A stretch of 64,000 nt of DNA from Sphingomicrobium sp. (GTDB taxonomy: Bacteria > Pseudomonadota > Alphaproteobacteria > Sphingomonadales > Sphingomonadaceae), in the NCBI GenBank assembly GCA_030447545.1, contig JAUJOV010000012.1:1-64000 (forward strand). Reading direction: 5' to 3'. Positions within the stretch are counted from its first letter, which is position 1, and every line of letters begins with the position of its first letter. The notes below the pieces were generated by a model. The model saw only the letters and a list, made by a program, of their open reading frames with translations, had not been told where the DNA came from and did no database searches. A program made the position numbers and the translations under genes. Shown one piece after another: positions 14,220 to 38,579 of the stretch.

Positions 14220-15827
14220 TTAAGTCCGCCGCCGCCGCCGATAGCGCTCCACCGGGCCGAGGGCAATGCCGACGATCAGAAGCGCGAAGGCGATCACGAG
14301 CGGGATGATGTTGCCGAAACGGGCGAACGGCGGGGCAACGATCGCGGGCGGCGGCAAAGCGGCGTCGATCACTCCGGCAGTGCCCATCCCCAGCGATTTC
14401 ACCACCCGCCCGCGAGCATCGATGACCGCGCTGATCCCGGTGGGAGTTGCACGGATAATCGGCAAGCCTTCCTCGGCCGCGCGAAGCCGCGCCTGCGCAA
14501 GGTGCTGAGGCGGTCCCCACCGGCCGAACCAGGCATCGTTCGACGGGTTGAAGATGAAGCCTGGCCGGTTGTTCCGATCGACCACCTGGCCGGAAAAGAT
14601 GATCTCGTAGCAGAGCTGGAAGCCGACCCTGCCCCATCCGGGCAGAGTGACCGTCCGAGGCCCAGGGCCGGGGATGAAGTCGACGTCCCCGGGCGCAAGC
14701 CGGGACAAGCCGATCGCCGACAGCAGCGGCCGCATCGGAAGATATTCTCCGTAGGGCACGAGATGTGCCTTGTCGTAGCGGCCGACGATTTGCCCGTCGG
14801 GCCGGAGCACGTAGACGCTGTTGGCCGCGCCGGTGATCCGCCGCCCGTCGGGTGAGAAGAGCGCAATGCCGCCGGTGAGCAGATATTCGCCCGGACCGAT
14901 CGAGGCGGCGGCGCGGCGGCGCTCGAAGGCCGTGTAGGCCGAATAGGCCCCGGCGCGCTGGTCGATCAGCGGCTGGGTGACCGCGGCTTCCGGCCAGAAG
15001 AGCAGGCGCCGGCGCTCGCCGCCGGGCTGTGCGGAAAGCTGCGCGAGCCGCTGCGCCGCGATCTCCGAGAAGCCGGGGCGCCATTTGTCCTGCTGGCCGA
15101 TATTCGGCTGGACGACGCGGATCGGCTTGCGCGCGAGCGGATGGTCGGGAACCCGCGAGGACGGGAGCAGCCACAGCAGGGCCGTCAGTCCAAGGATGAG
15201 CACCGTCGGCAGCCACTTGCGGTAGAACTCCAGCCAGATTGCGCCTGCGAGGAGGACCACGAGGAGCGAAAGGCCATAGGTGCCCACGAGCGCGCTCAGC
15301 GACAGCAAAGGCGTGCTGACGAGCGTCGCACCGACGGGATTCCAGGCAAAACCGGTGAACATGCCCGCGCGCAGCCATTCGGTGATCGCCCAGGCGCCGG
15401 AAAGGGTCACCACGAGCTCCACCGGGCGTTCGCGCCCCAGCCTCCAGCCCAGGCCGGTCGCGAGCGCGGGATAGACCGCAAGGTAGAGCGACAGCAGCAG
15501 CACTGCGCCCCAGCCCAGGGAGGCCGGCATCGCTGCCTGGTAGGTGAAGGCGGTCGCGATCCAGTTTAGCCCGACGACGAACTGGCCAAGGCCGAAGAAC
15601 CAGCCGAGGAGGAGCGCGCGGGTCAGGCTGTGCGTCCGCTGCAGAAGCTCCAGCAGCACCGCGAATGCGACCGGCATCAACGGCCACAGGCCGGCGGGTT
15701 CGAACGCGAATGCGGAAGCCGCGCCGAGCGCCAGGGCAATGAGCCAGCCGAAGCGGTCGCTCGGGCTCGAAGCTTCCCCGGACTGGCTGCGCGCGAACTG
15801 CCGCAAGGTTCGCAACCTTACGGGCAC
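14220..15827 (-). CDS. lnt: Apolipoprotein N-acyltransferase
   Basis: An inner-membrane enzyme that adds the third acyl chain to lipoproteins. About eight N-terminal hydrophobic segments precede a nitrilase-like domain (from ~residue 225) carrying the catalytic Glu (LLFWPEAAVTQ), Lys (KAHLVPYGEYLP) and Cys (FQLCYEIIF). I propose GTG 15827 (535 residues). The frame remains open to 16013, but that would run into the divergent VOC gene. It lies between corC and metK, and the corC-lnt order is common. Confidence 0.93.
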   Translation of the reverse strand: MPVRLRTLRQFARSQSGEASSPSDRFGWLIALALGAASAFAFEPAGLWPLMPVAFAVLLELLQRTHSLTRALLLGWFFGLGQFVVGLNWIATAFTYQAAMPASLGWGAVLLLSLYLAVYPALATGLGWRLGRERPVELVVTLSGAWAITEWLRAGMFTGFAWNPVGATLVSTPLLSLSALVGTYGLSLLVVLLAGAIWLEFYRKWLPTVLILGLTALLWLLPSSRVPDHPLARKPIRVVQPNIGQQDKWRPGFSEIAAQRLAQLSAQPGGERRRLLFWPEAAVTQPLIDQRAGAYSAYTAFERRRAAASIGPGEYLLTGGIALFSPDGRRITGAANSVYVLRPDGQIVGRYDKAHLVPYGEYLPMRPLLSAIGLSRLAPGDVDFIPGPGPRTVTLPGWGRVGFQLCYEIIFSGQVVDRNNRPGFIFNPSNDAWFGRWGPPQHLAQARLRAAEEGLPIIRATPTGISAVIDARGRVVKSLGMGTAGVIDAALPPPAIVAPPFARFGNIIPLVIAFALLIVGIALGPVERYRRRRRT

Positions 15828-32080: not shown

Positions 32081-32710
32081 ATGAGCCGCAGGAAACTGCC
32101 ACTATTTCCCCTCCCATTCGTGCGGCTGCTGTTCGCAACGCTTCAAAGACGGAATGAGGTCGCGCGGCTGCCGTGGGCAGAGCTTCACCAAGCAGAGGCT
32201 CGGTGGCACATGGAGGGCGATCGGGCGAAGAATGAAGAGCCGCACCTGGTCCATCTGAACGCGCGCGCTCTGACAGAGCTTGACGCTCTCGGCTGGAAGC
32301 GACGTGGGCTAGTCCTGTCCACAACCGGCTCAACGCCCATCAGCGGCTTCTCAAAGATGAAGCGCAAGCTGGATGCGGCCATGCTGCCGATCCTTCAGGA
32401 CATGGCCGACAAGCGGGCTGCTGTTCTTGGTGAAGAATCTCATCCGGTCGGCGTCGATCGCTGGACGCTGCACGACATACGGCGCAGCGGGACAACCGCG
32501 CTCCAGGCGCTCGGCTTCCCGGTCGAGGTCACGGAGAAGGTCATCAACCACAAGAGCGGCGAGGTTTCGGGGATCAGGGCCGTCTATAACCTGTGGACCT
32601 ATGAGCCGGAGAAGCGGGCCGCGCTCGATGCATGGGGCACCTATCTCGACAAACTGATCGCGGGTGCCGATGCGCCCAATGTTGTTCAGCTCGCGGCAGC
32701 GCGAGCGTGA
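32081..32710 (+). pseudogene. Tyrosine recombinase (island integrase), N-terminal part missing
   Basis: Only the catalytic domain remains (209 residues). It has the first Arg in LQRRNEVARLPW, the HDIRRSG motif (His-x2-Arg), INHKSGEVSG (second His), and a VYNLWTY segment where the nucleophilic Tyr falls. Full P4-type integrases have ~400 residues; the core- and arm-binding N-terminal half would have to lie left of 32081, but only 39 bases separate it from the att repeat. It is therefore truncated at the boundary and probably cannot excise the island unaided. Confidence 0.85.
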
Positions 32711-32804
32711 ACGGTGGCGTGGCTAGGGTAGCTCCCGAAGAGCCGGATTTCCGCTCCGGCCTGCCGCGTCACTCTGCTCTGCGGATCGCCTACGGAGGGC
32801 GTGA

Positions 32805-33550: not shown

Positions 33551-33647
33551 CAACATTACCGCACAATTCATTGGCTCGTCGTCTCCTGATCTACTTTCGC
33601 CCTCGTTCCGATACGCGCTTTTGCGTTCGGCGGCTGAGGGCAGTTCG

Positions 33648-33860
33648 ATGCGAAACGATGATGATCTTCTAACAACGGAAGAGATGGCAGAGGTCCGCGG
33701 CGTTCCGCCCAGCCGTCTGCACAAGGAGCGGCTGACCGGCATCGATTGTCAGCCATTCATCAAGGACGGTCACCTGGTCCGCTACCGGTGGGGTGACTAT
33801 CGGGAGTGGTTGCGGGCTCGCCCCCGTGCAACCTCCACTTCGCAGTCGGTCGCCGCGTGA
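33648..33860 (+). CDS. AlpA/excisionase-like helix-turn-helix protein
   Basis: A 70-residue protein: LLTTEEMAEVRGVPPSRLHKER (helix-turn-helix opening), then a wing-like VRYRWGDYREWLRAR, the arrangement of MerR-type AlpA and phage excisionase proteins. In P4-like elements AlpA controls integrase expression and excision. It starts the rightward run of island replication genes; the next ATG follows 2 bases after its stop. Confidence 0.65.
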   Translation: MRNDDDLLTTEEMAEVRGVPPSRLHKERLTGIDCQPFIKDGHLVRYRWGDYREWLRARPRATSTSQSVAA

Positions 33861-34074: not shown

Positions 34075-34475
34075 GCGCGCTGGATCCCGGAACGCAGCGT
34101 CGGCTGATCGCAGCCGCAAGATTGCTCGAGAGCGACAAGCCGGGCGAGCGGCAGGCGGCAACCGAAGCCATGCTTAGACTTCTCCCTCAGGGCATGACCG
34201 TGGCGGATTTGCTCGAGAGAGCAATCTCGCCAGTTGCGCCAATCAGAAGGGTCGAGCATTTCCGGCCAACGCGCAACCAAGCGCCCGAGCCTTTCACGCT
34301 TCTTCGGCGCTGGCAGCACAAGGCGCTGATGCTCCTGTCGTTCCCGGAGATGTTGAACGATCGCGAGTTGGAGTTTGCGCAGGACATGCGGGTCCGCCGC
34401 GATGAGCCGACGCAAAAGCAGATGGCGTGGCTGAACAACTTGGCCGCCCGTGTCGAAGCGAGAACGGCAGCATGA
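34071..34475 (+). CDS. Hypothetical protein preceding the primase
   Basis: 134 residues starting MSALDPGTQRRLIAAARLL. The helical N-terminus is followed by FTLLRRWQHKALMLLSFPEMLN and PTQKQMAWLNNLAARVE, the last resembling a short helix found at the end of small phage DNA-processing proteins. It overlaps the genes on both sides by 4 bases (ATGA), so it is co-translated with the primase. A role as a primase/helicase accessory is only inferred from position. Confidence 0.6.
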   Translation: MSALDPGTQRRLIAAARLLESDKPGERQAATEAMLRLLPQGMTVADLLERAISPVAPIRRVEHFRPTRNQAPEPFTLLRRWQHKALMLLSFPEMLNDRELEFAQDMRVRRDEPTQKQMAWLNNLAARVEARTAA

Positions 34476-35377
34476 GCGCCGTCGACTTTGCCGCGGTCAA
34501 AGCGGTGCAGCTCTCAGCGGTTGTCGGCCAGTCCGTGCAGCTCAGACGGAGCGGTCACGAGTGGATCGGATGTTGTCCGTTTCACCAGGATCGAACGCCT
34601 AGCTTCACCGTCAGCGACGCCAAGGGCTTCTACCATTGCTTCGGATGCGGTGCTCACGGCGACGCAGCGGACTTCGTGGCGGCGCTCGACGGCTGTGGGC
34701 TTCGCGAAGCTGCGCCGCGTTCGGGTGCTGGTGATCTGCCGGCATTCACAAATCGGACGACATCTGCCGTTTTGCCCGACAAGGCCGAAACCGTTGATGC
34801 CGCACGGCGCATCTGGCGGGAGGCCATACCAATCAAGGGCACGCCGGCCGAAGCTTATCTATGGGGCCGCGGCATTCATGCGCCGCTGCCTCCGACGTTG
34901 CGGTTCGCACGGTTGCGTCATCCTGAGGGTGGGGTTCACCCGTGCCTGGTCGCGGTGGCTATCTCTCCGGAGCGCACGTTCGCAGGGATTCAGCGCACCT
35001 ACCTGACTGATGCCGGGCTGAAGGCCAGCGTCGAGCCGGTGAAGATGTCGCTGGGCAGGATCGGGGGCTGCGCGATCCGTCTCGCCCCTCCTGCTGGCGA
35101 ACTGATCGTCTGCGAGGGTGTCGAGGACGGCCTCACGCTTCTCCAGGAGCTCGGGCGCGGCGTGTGGGTGGCAGCCGGGGCTTCCATGCTGGCGTCGATG
35201 CGCTTTCCGCCGATCGTGCAGTCGGTCGTGATTGCCGCCGACAACGACACTGCTGGGGAGCGCGAAACCCAGAAAGCGGCTTCGGCCTTCAGTGAGCGCG
35301 GCCTTCGCGTTCGCGTCATGCGCCCAGCGGCCGGCTTCAAGGACTTCAATGAAGAGTTGCAGGGGGGGCCGAAATGA
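34472..35377 (+). CDS. Island DNA primase (CHC2 zinc finger plus Toprim)
   Basis: 301 residues. The N-terminal zinc site is read as GCCPFHQDRTPSF then FYHCFGCGAHGDA (Cys34/Cys35, His38, Cys56, Cys59). The C-terminal Toprim domain shows LIVCEGVEDGLTLL (Glu) and VIAADNDTAG (Asp-x-Asp). This is the short primase architecture of phages and plasmids; it would make primers for replication of the island. It overlaps the helicase gene by 4 bases. Confidence 0.85.
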   Translation: MSAVDFAAVKAVQLSAVVGQSVQLRRSGHEWIGCCPFHQDRTPSFTVSDAKGFYHCFGCGAHGDAADFVAALDGCGLREAAPRSGAGDLPAFTNRTTSAVLPDKAETVDAARRIWREAIPIKGTPAEAYLWGRGIHAPLPPTLRFARLRHPEGGVHPCLVAVAISPERTFAGIQRTYLTDAGLKASVEPVKMSLGRIGGCAIRLAPPAGELIVCEGVEDGLTLLQELGRGVWVAAGASMLASMRFPPIVQSVVIAADNDTAGERETQKAASAFSERGLRVRVMRPAAGFKDFNEELQGGPK

Positions 35378-36309
35378 GCGGTGCTACCATGAAGGACCGG
35401 CTGGATAACGCCGAAGTGTTCGAGTTCCGCCAGCCGTTCGCGGCTATTGGGTTGGATGAACTGCTGTCGCGCCAATTTCCGCCTAAGGAGATGCTGCTGG
35501 CGCCTTGGCTCCCGTGCAAGGGAGTCGCCATGGTCTTCGCCCCCCGAGGCGTGGGAAAGACGCACTTTGCTCTGGGCGTCGCTTACGCGGTGGCGAGTGG
35601 CGGATCGTTCCTGGGCTGGCGCGCACCCAATTCTCGCAAGGTGCTGGTCATCGACGGTGAGATGCCTGCGGCTGCACTCCAGGAGCGGTGGGCAGAGATT
35701 GTAGCCAAGAGCGAAATGTCTCCTCCGAGCGGCGATGACGTGCGGATCCTCGCCTCCGATCTGTCCGAGTTCGGGCTGCCCGATCTCTCGACCGAGAAGG
35801 GGCAAGAGGCGATCTAGCCGCATATCGGCGATGCCGAGCTGATCGTCGTGGACAACCTCTCCACACTGGCCCGCACCGGCAAGGAGAACGAGTCAGAAAG
35901 CTGGGGCCTGATCCAGGCTTGGGCGCTCAAGCAGAGGCGAGAAGGCCGCTCGGTCCTGTTCGTCCACCATGCCGGCAAGGGTGGTGAACAGCGCGGCACA
36001 TCCAAGCGCGAAGACATCATGGACTCGGTGATCAAGCTGTCGCTGCCTTCTGACTACAGCCCGGTCGATGGCGCTCGGTTCGTCGTGCAGTTCACCAAGT
36101 CGCGCGGCTTCTCAGGGCCGGATGCCGAGCCTTTCGAGGCGGCGCTTCGCGATGGCGCATGGTCCATGAAGTCACTGGAGGATGTTCGCACCGCGCAGAT
36201 CCTCGAACTGCACGGGGAGGGGCTCAACCAACGCGACATCGCATCGGAGGTCGGCTGTTCGGCGGCCACCGTAAACCGGGTGATCAAGCGCTCGAAGGTG
36301 GGAGACTGA
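35374..36309 (+). CDS. RepA-like hexameric replicative helicase, in-frame TAG at codon 148
   Basis: The Walker A motif FAPRGVGKTHFALG is at residues ~55-68, with VLVIDGEMPAAAL following. A TAG at 35815-35817 then interrupts the frame. Past it the same frame continues with ELIVVDNLSTLARTG (Walker B), VLFVHHAGKGGEQRGTS (arginine-finger region) and a C-terminal helix-turn-helix (LNQRDIASEVGCSAATVNRV). One substitution (GAG to TAG) explains the stop. The reconstructed 311-residue protein is a RepA/RSF1010-type or DnaB-superfamily helicase partnered with the preceding primase. Confidence 0.82.
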
Positions 36310-36312
36310 ACC

Positions 36313-36898
36313 ATGTCGCTCAAGGCCCTGGCCAGTGAAACTCTTGCCCGGCTGCGAGCTGGCGAGATGGGGCATGAAACAATGAATGAAACACAGTTGA
36401 AACAGGTGAAACAGGCTGAACCTTGTTTCACGGATGGCAGCCAGCGTTTCACCCCTGTGAAACACGATGAGCGGCAGAAAACCTCAAAAACGAACTTCTG
36501 TTTCACTGTTTCACTCCCTAGGGGTGAAACACATGAAACAAGCCTGCCGGATAGCGTGGTGGCGGGCTTGGCTCGATTGCGGGTCGCCTCAGTTCCGAAG
36601 GGTGTGCTGGTAGAGCCGTGGGCGGCGGCGGTGGGCGCGCGCAGCGGCTAGCAGAGGACGGCTGGGCTGGTCGCGCACTGGCGCTGGGCTGGACCGAGCT
36701 GGACTCTCCTTCGGTGCGGTCACTGATCCTGATGGTGACTCTGCGGCAGATGGTCTGGCCGTGAAGCTCAATGGCCGACGGGTCCTGGCGATCGGTGAAG
36801 GCTTTGCGACCGTAGACGATGCCAACGGTGGCCGGTCGTATCTTCACCGCGGCGATACTAGCTCCGGGCGACTGTTGTGGAGTGGGGCGAATGACTGA
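36313..36898 (+). CDS. Unknown protein spanning the iteron-like array, frameshifted as read
   Basis: It starts 3 bases after the helicase stop (MSLKALASETLARLRAGE). Residues ~20-75 are low-complexity because they translate the repeat array (ETMNETQLKQVKQ, CFTVSLPRGETHET). The second half appears only after two single-base shifts (near 36645 and 36710): AQRLAEDGWAGRALALGW, then LFGAVTDPDGDSAADGLAVKL and RRVLAIGEGFATVDDANG, ending 36898. The clean coding character of the tail argues for a real gene. Function unknown. Confidence 0.6.
36375..36540. repeat. Iteron-like TGAAAC/GTTTCA array
   Basis: Seven direct TGAAAC words (starting 36375, 36387, 36398, 36407, 36458, 36525, 36534) and four inverted GTTTCA words (36425, 36446, 36500, 36508) lie within 166 bases. 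Two pairs make dyads: GTTTCAC-CCCT-GTGAAAC at 36446-36463, and a longer one at 36508-36530 centred on CCCTAGGG. It lies directly behind the primase and helicase genes, where replication origins of such elements are often found. Confidence 0.8.
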
Positions 36899-37336
36899 AC
36901 CGATAAATAGCGGTGGAATATCGGCTGGCCGGAATGAGGATGGCACCTTCGCGCCTGGAAATGCCGGCGGCGGCAAGCCCCGGGGGGCCCGCCCCAAGGT
37001 TACTCGGGCCGTCGAGGAACTGCTGGAAGGCGAGCACGAGGCGCTCACGCGCAAAGCGATCGAGAAGGCGCTTGAGGGTGACATGGCTGCGTTGCGTCTT
37101 TGCCTGGAGCGGATAGCACCGCCCAGGAAGGACGCGCCGGTCTCCGTCGCGCTTCCTCCGGTCAAGTCTGCTGCCGACGCCGTCGGCGCATCTGCTGCGC
37201 TTTGAGCGCCGTCGCTGCTGGCGAAGTCACTCCCGATGAAGCGGCTCGCGTCATGGTCCTGCTGACGGCGCACAAGGCCATCGTTGAGGCCGGGGACCTG
37301 GAGAGCCGCATCACAGCATTGGAGAAAGCGAAATGA
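36891..37336 (+). CDS. DUF5681-domain protein, frameshifted as read
   Basis: Start MTEPINSGGISAGRNEDGTF; then PGNAGGGKPRGARPKVTRAV (the DUF5681 Gly/Lys/Pro/Arg motif) and EALTRKAIEKALEGDMAAL with LCLERIAPPRKDAPV. The frame breaks near 37200 and resumes as SAVAAGEVTPDEAARVM, ending in a coiled RITALEKAK. DUF5681 proteins occur in phage and island contexts, often near terminase or replication genes, and are thought to bind DNA. It overlaps the previous gene by 8 bases and the next by 4. Confidence 0.75.
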
Positions 37337-37520
37337 CGCAGCTTCGAAAGCGCGTGGAAGGCCTGGAGACGAGGCCCTGCCGCCGATGGCGCCGCGTGAG
37401 TTTCACATCATCGGCATGGAAGACGGCCCAACAGAAGCGGAGGCTATCGCGCGCTATGGTCGGCCGATCGGGCCCGATGACGACATTGTCTTCCTGGTCG
37501 GGAGGAAGCCCTCGACATGA
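37333..37520 (+). CDS. Tiny tandem paralogue 1, frameshifted as read
   Basis: Opens MTQLRKRVEGLETR, then, one base over (near 37372), LPPMAPREFHIIGMEDGPTE and AEAIARYGRPIGPDDDIVFL. The reconstructed protein (~62 residues) has a short coiled-coil N-terminus and a compact alpha/beta tail. It shares this layout with the next two genes. ATGA overlaps on both sides bind it into one operon with the DUF5681 gene. Confidence 0.6.
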
Positions 37521-37708
37521 AGCGGCTTAATACGCGGGTGGCGGACCTAGAAGCCAAGCGCACACCGCCTTTCGGTCGGACGCACTCGATAATTCAGCGC
37601 GTTGGACACACGCAGGATGAGGCAATTGACGCTTATGGTCGCGCCCTAATTGGTGAGGATGATCTGCTCATCATCAACGTGATCGTGGCGCCCAATGAAG
37701 CGGCTTGA
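37517..37708 (+). CDS. Tiny tandem paralogue 2
   Basis: 63 residues: MKRLNTRVADLEAK (coiled coil), a linker, then HTQDEAIDAYGRALIGEDDLLI, which aligns by eye with paralogue 1 (TEAEAIARYGRPIGPDDDI). Intact reading frame, 4-base overlap upstream and 14-base overlap downstream. No known family; role unknown. Confidence 0.65.
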   Translation: MKRLNTRVADLEAKRTPPFGRTHSIIQRVGHTQDEAIDAYGRALIGEDDLLIINVIVAPNEAA

Positions 37709-37895
37709 TGCGAGGGTGGCAGATCTGGAGGCCAAACACATTCCGTTGAAGCGCGTTCGGGTGCGGTGTCACGAAGGGCAAAGCCAGGAGGAAGCGATCA
37801 TCGCTGCCGGGTACGATCCGAACGACGAGGGGCTTTTCATCATAGTCCGCACGCTTGTCTCGCCGCGCTTCAAACCTGATCCGAGTTCGAGCTAA
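37695..37895 (+). CDS. Tiny tandem paralogue 3
   Basis: 66 residues: MKRLDARVADLEAK is almost identical to paralogue 2, followed by SQEEAIIAAGYDPNDEGLFI, again the same alpha/beta tail. Its stop falls at the edge of a TGTCCGC dispersed repeat. The three genes form a tandem array produced by duplication and divergence. Confidence 0.65.
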   Translation: MKRLDARVADLEAKHIPLKRVRVRCHEGQSQEEAIIAAGYDPNDEGLFIIVRTLVSPRFKPDPSSS

Positions 37896-37923
37896 TGTCC
37901 GCTTTCGACCCAAAGCGGACATT
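37894..37923. repeat. Dispersed near-palindrome, copy 1
   Basis: AATGTCCGCTTT-CGACCC-AAAGCGGACATT: 12-base perfectly complementary arms around a 6-base loop. The best-preserved of the copies seen in this window. Confidence 0.75.
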
Positions 37924-38012
37924 CGGCAGCACCAAGACAATGACTGTCGTTGCTGGATCGTTGCTCGTGCAGTATCCGCTCGTGAAGTTGCCATCGCAGC
38001 AGGGGGCAGTGG

Positions 38013-38469: not shown

Positions 38470-38498
38470 AATGTCCGGTTCGACCCAAAGCAGACATT
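38470..38498. repeat. Dispersed near-palindrome, copy 2 (degenerate)
   Basis: AATGTCCG...CGACCC...GCAGACATT: same layout as copy 1 with a one-base shorter left arm and one mismatch. Confidence 0.6.
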
Positions 38499-38579
38499 CC
38501 GACTGCACGCCAATAGCGAGGTTGGAGCCGTACGCGCAAAGCTGTTAGGCGAAGGCCCCTCCTAACTGGACGACTGACA

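Follow-up and report, generated by a model that had tools for sequence, protein, structure and literature searches.

In this work, a dense array of the word TGAAAC and its reverse complement GTTTCA was analyzed in a stretch of 64,000 nucleotides from Sphingomicrobium sp. (assembly GCA_030447545.1, contig JAUJOV010000012.1, positions 1 to 64,000), hereafter called the window. The array lies directly behind the primase and helicase genes of a small island, inside an open reading frame (ORF). It is probably the replication origin, or the decayed remains of the origin, of this int-alpA-primase-helicase element, with the helicase as its putative initiator. Judged from sequence comparison, the island is best read as a primase-helicase-origin replicon of the type of the phage-inducible chromosomal islands (PICI) and Staphylococcus aureus pathogenicity islands (SaPI), here with iterons that would lie inside a gene and be read by the helix-turn-helix (HTH) of the helicase itself. 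The features that bear on this proposal are the following.

36336..36539, no strand assigned: array of 12 TGAAAC/GTTTCA words, proposed iterons (word counts).
36464..36499, no strand assigned: largest gap in the array, 36 bases, candidate melting site (AT 0.56, flanks 0.34).
36313..36651, + strand: array gene, open 5' part, with the conserved peptide SLKALASETLAR near its start (open frame; the peptide recurs in relatives).
36256..36291, + strand: recognition-helix codons CSAATVNRVIKR of the helicase, proposed reader of TGAAAC (alignment and column ranking).

Eleven of the words (7 on the + strand and 4 on the - strand) lie at 36375-36540, exactly as counted in the first-pass annotation of this DNA, and a twelfth at 36336 brings the whole array to 8 words on the + and 4 on the - strand. 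The other DNA of the 64-kb window has 10 such words. In 2000 dinucleotide shuffles of 36330-36545, the word count had a mean of 0.40 and a maximum of 3, far below the observed number, and in a control for any 6-mer (500 shuffles of the same stretch) the top 6-mer never exceeded 6 copies. All six window copies of GTGAAACA fall inside the array (0.59 expected). The two nested dyads described earlier were both found, the outer one with arms of 11 nt at 36446-36456 and 36520-36530 (100% identical) and the second, within it, at 36507-36517 and 36521-36531 (91%). The frame from the ATG at 36313 is open across all 12 words up to a stop at 36649-36651, and the words occupy all three of its codon phases (one phase just once), so this is a repeat of DNA and not of peptide. 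The first word stands 27 bases past the helicase stop, which puts short repeats directly 3' of the helicase gene.

A homologous island with a changed word was found in one (G316) of 396 other genomes of the family, where the helicase is 73% identical over its C-terminal piece. The array gene of G316 is intact (183 residues) and is built on TGGAAC. Nine of the 12 window words align in register with words of G316, each with this same single-base change, and the identity of the two array regions is just 167 of 297 positions. Among the remaining three, the word at 36525 is off by one base, that at 36425 faces a degenerate copy, and that at 36336 is unmatched. The encoded residues follow the change of the word, e.g. 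from LKQVKQ in the window to LEQVER in G316. The first-pass annotation had proposed comparing the conservation of the DNA word with that of the amino acids; the word positions are kept and the residues change, which contradicts conservation at the protein level only. Such a concerted change in register is explained by a reader that binds the DNA, and not by a constraint on the protein. Since the words lie inside a translated gene, the DNA word would dictate this stretch of the protein. The earlier suggestion that a replication origin dictates the middle of a gene thus gains support from the change in G316, and also from the widespread arrays of related islands.

These arrays were scored at AAA_25 helicases with a C-terminal HTH, which were found in 16 of 385 genomes of the class, at 79 loci of viral contigs, and in 9 of 17 and 1 of 2 genomes of two families. 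From 115 loci entered, 80 had an alignable recognition helix, and 44 of these had an array score of at least 19 between -250 and +700 of the helicase end, compared with 3 of 196 control stretches drawn from the same loci; the related loci are not independent, and the score thresholds used in this work (13.5, 16, and 19) were set after the data had been seen. Four places are doubled among the 80, all with arrays (L200/L304, L213/L295, L202/L307, and L214/L308), and without the doubles the arrays stand at 40 of 76 helicases. The scoring used exact 6-mers, so that degenerate arrays are missed, and because contigs derived from metagenomes are among the loci, some gene breaks may be assembly errors. 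At L211, eleven AATCAC words lie 1.8 kb upstream of the helicase end and form the strongest array of a control region.

The array gene has a conserved C-terminal domain, here called the tail domain, and a model built from seven sequences of it matches 12 of 385 genomes of the class. By a degenerate DNA pattern for the core of the domain, 63 genome and 30 viral stretches were collected, which gave 106 together with 13 earlier loci, and all 106 have at least one match to the hidden Markov model (HMM) of the tail domain, a few of them weak. The records of these island relatives are mostly alphaproteobacterial by title; an identical tail ORF is shared by L086, a genome of the same class, and L129, a Rhodospirillales record, and the tail-domain piece had no match in the plasmids searched. 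In 53 of 91 distinct tail ORFs (at least 40 bits and sufficient upstream DNA), the preceding ORF belongs to one blastp-connected group, which includes AAA_25, DUF927, and DUF3987 proteins, as seen for four upstream proteins checked. Of these 53 helicase-adjacent loci, 31 had a word-enrichment score of at least 19 close to the domain, and a single one had such a score at a distance. The other 38 tail loci gave one such score near the domain and none far from it, and the sequence of the sole positive, L124, ends 138 bases upstream. Clustered at 50% identity, the 53 loci form 23 clusters; an array stands near the domain in 14 of them and at a distance in 1. Repeats in related islands, which the first-pass annotation had made the touchstone of its proposal, are therefore common at both the tail loci and the helicases, but not universal.

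The peptide SLKALAxxxLxR occurs behind 10 of the 80 helicases (two places counted twice), with differing words. In the window, G316, and L300 it lies near the helicase end; in L213 and L083 it stands some 100 bases farther on and is surrounded by words. Because this peptide is kept alongside different words, the array gene is taken to be a real gene. The tail domain is also found without helicase and array, e.g. in Methylobacterium records. The widespread tail domain of L073 (947-1264, 106 residues) was modeled with a predicted local distance difference test (pLDDT) score of 96.6, and this model had no PDB match at E <= 0.001. The window's own genome contains a second tail-domain element, L082, with a different helicase and five GCTAAA words (score 17.9, below threshold).

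The place of the array relative to the genes varies. Among 38 arrays with a score of at least 17, the tail gene holds 18 in its 5' part and the upstream (helicase) gene holds 7 within its 3' end, so that 25 of 38 have their words within translated genes; 10 more are downstream of the tail gene and 3 elsewhere. Shuffled versions of the 18 tail-gene arrays would remain open in 3.6 cases on average, a count which is descriptive only because these arrays were chosen for lying in an ORF. In L076, a relative of the same genus, 11 GGGACA words stand in the 3' part of the helicase gene, and the terminase small-subunit profiles PF20901 and PF03592 follow the helicase. Among the primase-only relatives scanned, arrays of at least 19 were found in L068 (19.5), L075 (20.1), and L076 (31.4); none of this score was found in L061, L062, L064, and L069-L071, the last three having no helicase annotated directly after the primase in a gene table that is incomplete. 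Primase homology alone was rejected as a handle for such islands, since 55 of 61 genomes match, mostly by the N-terminal zinc ribbon only, as in chromosomal DnaG. A blind scan for three TGAAAC words was positive in 50 of 196 genomes, and among 30 of its loci, scanned though not case by case, none equals the mixed-orientation array of 12 in the window. L045 contains 31 TGAAAC/GTTTCA words within 2.4 kb.

The orientation of the words is also ordered. In 45 arrays, several of them closely related, there are 94 orientation switches, compared with a permuted mean of 165.5 and a minimum of 137 (5000 permutations); when each cluster is represented by a single array and L079 is added (18 arrays), there are 44, compared with a mean of 68.8 and a minimum of 48 (10000 permutations). 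Strictly two opposed word sets make up 22 of the 45 arrays, the switch falling at the largest gap in 17 of these 22, and in 37 of 45 the largest gap is AT-richer than its flanks. Six Sphingomonas/Sphingomonadales loci (L115, L126, L133, L135, L138, and L149) have, downstream of the tail gene, two opposed ACAATAG triplets separated by a gap of 110-137 bases in which an AT-rich stretch lies.

The recognition helix of the helicase varies together with the word. SAA accompanies GAAAC in the window, L206, and L300; GLA or GLG accompanies GGAAC in L073, L213, L301, and kin; SKS or GKS accompanies GGGAC in L083, L095, L224, and L227, and more weakly in L216 and L201; DRS or DRA accompanies GCGAC in L308 and L226; and GCAAC is found with NKS or HKS followed by N in L219-L221 and with RPF in L079. 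When 291 helicase columns were ranked, the middle residue of the recognition helix was the best predictor of the word (p 0.0012), and HTH columns outranked other helicase columns (p 0.0008). This ranking was identity-matched, with 5000 permutations and the maximum taken over columns, and used 31 representatives reduced from 40 after the data had been seen (loci below 16 and L210 were removed, and L205 was relabelled); for the full 40, the first column was unchanged, but at least 1 of 300 permutations exceeded it. For pairs below 60% and below 50% identity, the column test gave p 0.0030 and 0.0337, respectively. The relation was noted first and coded as a rule later, and at later-fetched loci it agreed for 9 of 10 with an array of at least 13.5, 5 of the 9 agreements coming from a family already seen. 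Of the two DNA-binding candidates named in the first-pass annotation, the helicase is thus favoured by the association between helix and word, and nothing indicates the AlpA-like protein.

In the proposed mechanism, the C-terminal HTH of the helicase would bind each word, and helicase hexamers would gather on word sets facing opposite directions. The AT-rich gap between them would then melt, the helicase would unwind the DNA, and the adjacent primase would prime it, giving the island autonomous replication. When the word and the recognition helix change together, all copies would change and the protein would follow. We hypothesize further, with odds that only slightly favour it, that these islands form a family of retargetable origins, in which one HTH helix reads the iterons through a partly legible code of residue to base, the words change in concert with origin specificity overriding protein sequence, and islands of the same host stay independent through different words.

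Several observations weigh against this interpretation. In the window, the helicase is broken by an in-frame TAG at 35815-35817, the array gene is broken as well, since its tail domain lies in two other frames, and the array has 4 orientation switches and not two clean sets. In G316, the gap is barely AT-rich (0.42, flanks 0.40). No array at threshold stands at 36 of the 80 helicases, the array of L158 is 1.5 kb away, and the upstream array of L211, with a score of 38.6, is the maximum of the controls; both are contrary or weak cases. The relation of helix to word also has exceptions: GAAAC occurs with TKG (L251) and, weakly, with ATG (L211); SKS occurs with AACCGTT (L205 and L210) and, weakly, with GCAAC (L217), and is without GGGAC also in L218 and L233; and in L306, L296, and L243 the predicted word is absent. 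In the column ranking, the second column is within the HTH and the third and fourth are outside it; for pairs below 45% identity, with 10 same-word pairs, p is 0.0933 and another column comes first. The rule agrees for 9 of 15 later-fetched loci when those without array are counted as misses.

Other explanations of the array have also to be considered. The helicase HTH may read the words for control (as operator, or in copy-number handcuffing or incompatibility) or for partition rather than for initiation. The same evidence for a reader applies here, i.e. the word change in G316, the arrays at 44 of 80 helicases, and the column ranking, and plasmid iterons often have a control role too. However, the reader is a helicase encoded next to a primase, and word sets that face each other across an AT-rich gap suit initiation, so we consider this explanation rather unlikely. 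It is very unlikely that the array is a packaging site whose reader is a small terminase-like protein from a downstream gene: terminase small-subunit profiles do follow the L076 helicase and a DUF5681 protein follows in the window, but the word tracks the helicase HTH, and DUF5681 is not established as a terminase subunit. Even less probable is that the words are half-sites of chromosomal parS (a 16-bp palindrome, consensus TGTTTCACGTGAAACA) which recruit the host ParB. GTGAAACA is identical to a parS half-site, but the window contains no full site at up to 3 mismatches, for which this explanation was rejected, and a host ParB would not follow the islands, since related ones use quite different words. 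A low-complexity protein repeat or chance composition is hardly credible for a region that is indeed translated and rich in repeats, because the words take several codon phases and both orientations, shuffles stay far lower, residues change in G316 where word positions stay, and the arrays of relatives also stand in other genes or beyond the tail gene. The array is thus best explained as a probable origin with the helicase as initiator.

The genes of the island are all on the + strand, in the order integrase, int-alpA RNA, AlpA-like ORF, primase, helicase, array gene, and DUF5681. In addition to the features given above, they comprise the following.

32081..32707, + strand: tyrosine integrase, short, 209 residues (PF00589, E 2.4e-07).
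32716..32784, + strand: int-alpA RNA, between integrase and AlpA-like ORF (Rfam RF02996, exceeding the gathering score with 47.6 bits).
33621..33860, + strand: small AlpA-like protein, named from its position and by the first-pass annotation, without Pfam match.
34427..35377, + strand: DnaG-type primase (PF01807, PF23639, PF13362).
35374..36309, + strand: RepA-type (AAA_25) helicase ending in an HTH (both pieces match AAA_25, and the second also matches HTH profiles).
36614..36895, + strand: what is left of the conserved tail domain, in another frame than the array part (HMM 49.0 bits).
36819..37205, + strand: DUF5681 protein (PF18932, E 8e-08).

The primase (with CHC2 zinc ribbon, DUF7146, and Toprim domains) and the helicase are encoded by adjacent genes, and their place just upstream of the array, as first annotated, was confirmed by domain profiles. 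The frame through the words, which had been thought to continue simply into coding sequence, is open but does not run on in this way, as the tail domain is in two other frames, with a second, weak HMM match at 36555-36761. In G316, the integrase has 450 residues compared with 209 in the window, and the counterpart of the AlpA-like ORF is an HTH_17 protein (PF12728). The window copy of the origin is presumably inactive now. No direct repeat of at least 18 nt flanks the island on both sides, either in the window or in L074; shorter repeats were not tested, and the window copy is decayed. Beyond the island, two tandem small ORFs at 37517-37745 have a diverged common start (51 nt, 78% identical; MKRL..RVADLEAK), an apparent duplication, and a 21-nt direct repeat (37904-37924 and 38479-38499, 95% identical, 575 bases apart) lies just outside it. 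The tRNA called by ARAGORN at 14497-14591, with an odd four-base anticodon (ggca), is probably spurious.

If the proposed reading is true, many separate elements have a cis-acting origin that overrides the protein sequence of a translated gene, and the repeat-rich hypothetical proteins behind such helicases are explained. The natural series of helix-word pairs would let initiator specificity be read, the origin word of an island would be predictable from its helicase, and islands could be sorted into compatibility groups. Natural proteins would allow a direct test of whether the initiator helix alone sets the origin specificity. Neither intragenic word arrays of this helicase group nor a relation of helix to word was found in the literature searched, which left subscription papers outside and is weak evidence of absence.

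The comparison with known systems draws on sections of the papers cited. In PICI and SaPI, primase and initiator helicase are encoded side by side, with the origin directly 3' of the helicase gene (PMC6092414; PMC7581432). The origins of PICI and SaPI have short repeats in two sets around an AT-rich region, and the C-terminal domain of the helicase recognises them (PMC6092414; PMC7581432). The architecture proposed here is the same as that of the published PICI origins and of the SaPI and staphylococcal cassette chromosome (SCC) initiators (PMC6092414; PMC7581432). Cch, a relative of SaPIbov1 Rep, has a DUF927 domain (PMC7581432), and the L117 helicase of this work is also a DUF927 protein. 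An integrase (short), an int-alpA RNA, and an AlpA-like ORF without Pfam match are further likenesses of the window to PICI. Some PICI have a terminase small subunit gene; the window has DUF5681 only, which is not established as such a subunit, and the relative L076 has PF20901 and PF03592. The differences are that 25 of 38 arrays here have their words inside translated genes, and that the initiator in the window would be a RepA-type AAA_25 helicase with HTH, in mostly alphaproteobacterial records. The lambda origin, with four 19-bp repeats inside gene O and an adjoining AT-rich stretch, is similar in having origin repeats in coding sequence beside an AT-rich stretch (PMC4488673), but those repeats are in the initiator gene itself, whereas here about a dozen words of 6-8 bp in both orientations are in the gene behind it. 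The PICMI satellites of Vibrio hosts are very small and have an integrase, AlpA, and a primase (DUF3987 profile), with int, alpA, and the DUF3987/DUF5906 primase at the fis gene (PMC10803314). DUF3987 proteins with arrays were also found here (L135 and L152), but the primase in the window is of the CHC2/Toprim type with an AAA_25 helicase and without DUF3987, and no RepA-type helicase is described for PICMI in the sections drawn on; the word iteron is absent from the main text of that paper (PMC10803314). RSF1010 RepA shares the RecA-like hexameric helicase core, AAA_25 in the window, and the L083 helicase, which is closely related to that of the window, matches it over residues 28-217 of L083 (PDB 1g8y, E 4.8e-10). 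The matched chain, however, has 279 residues, and the match of L083 ends before the HTH. The iterons of RSF1010 are bound by a separate protein, RepC, unlike the helicase HTH proposed here. Thus, the kind of replicon would be the already known primase-helicase-origin type of PICI and SaPI, and what appears to be new is a variant of it with intragenic word arrays.
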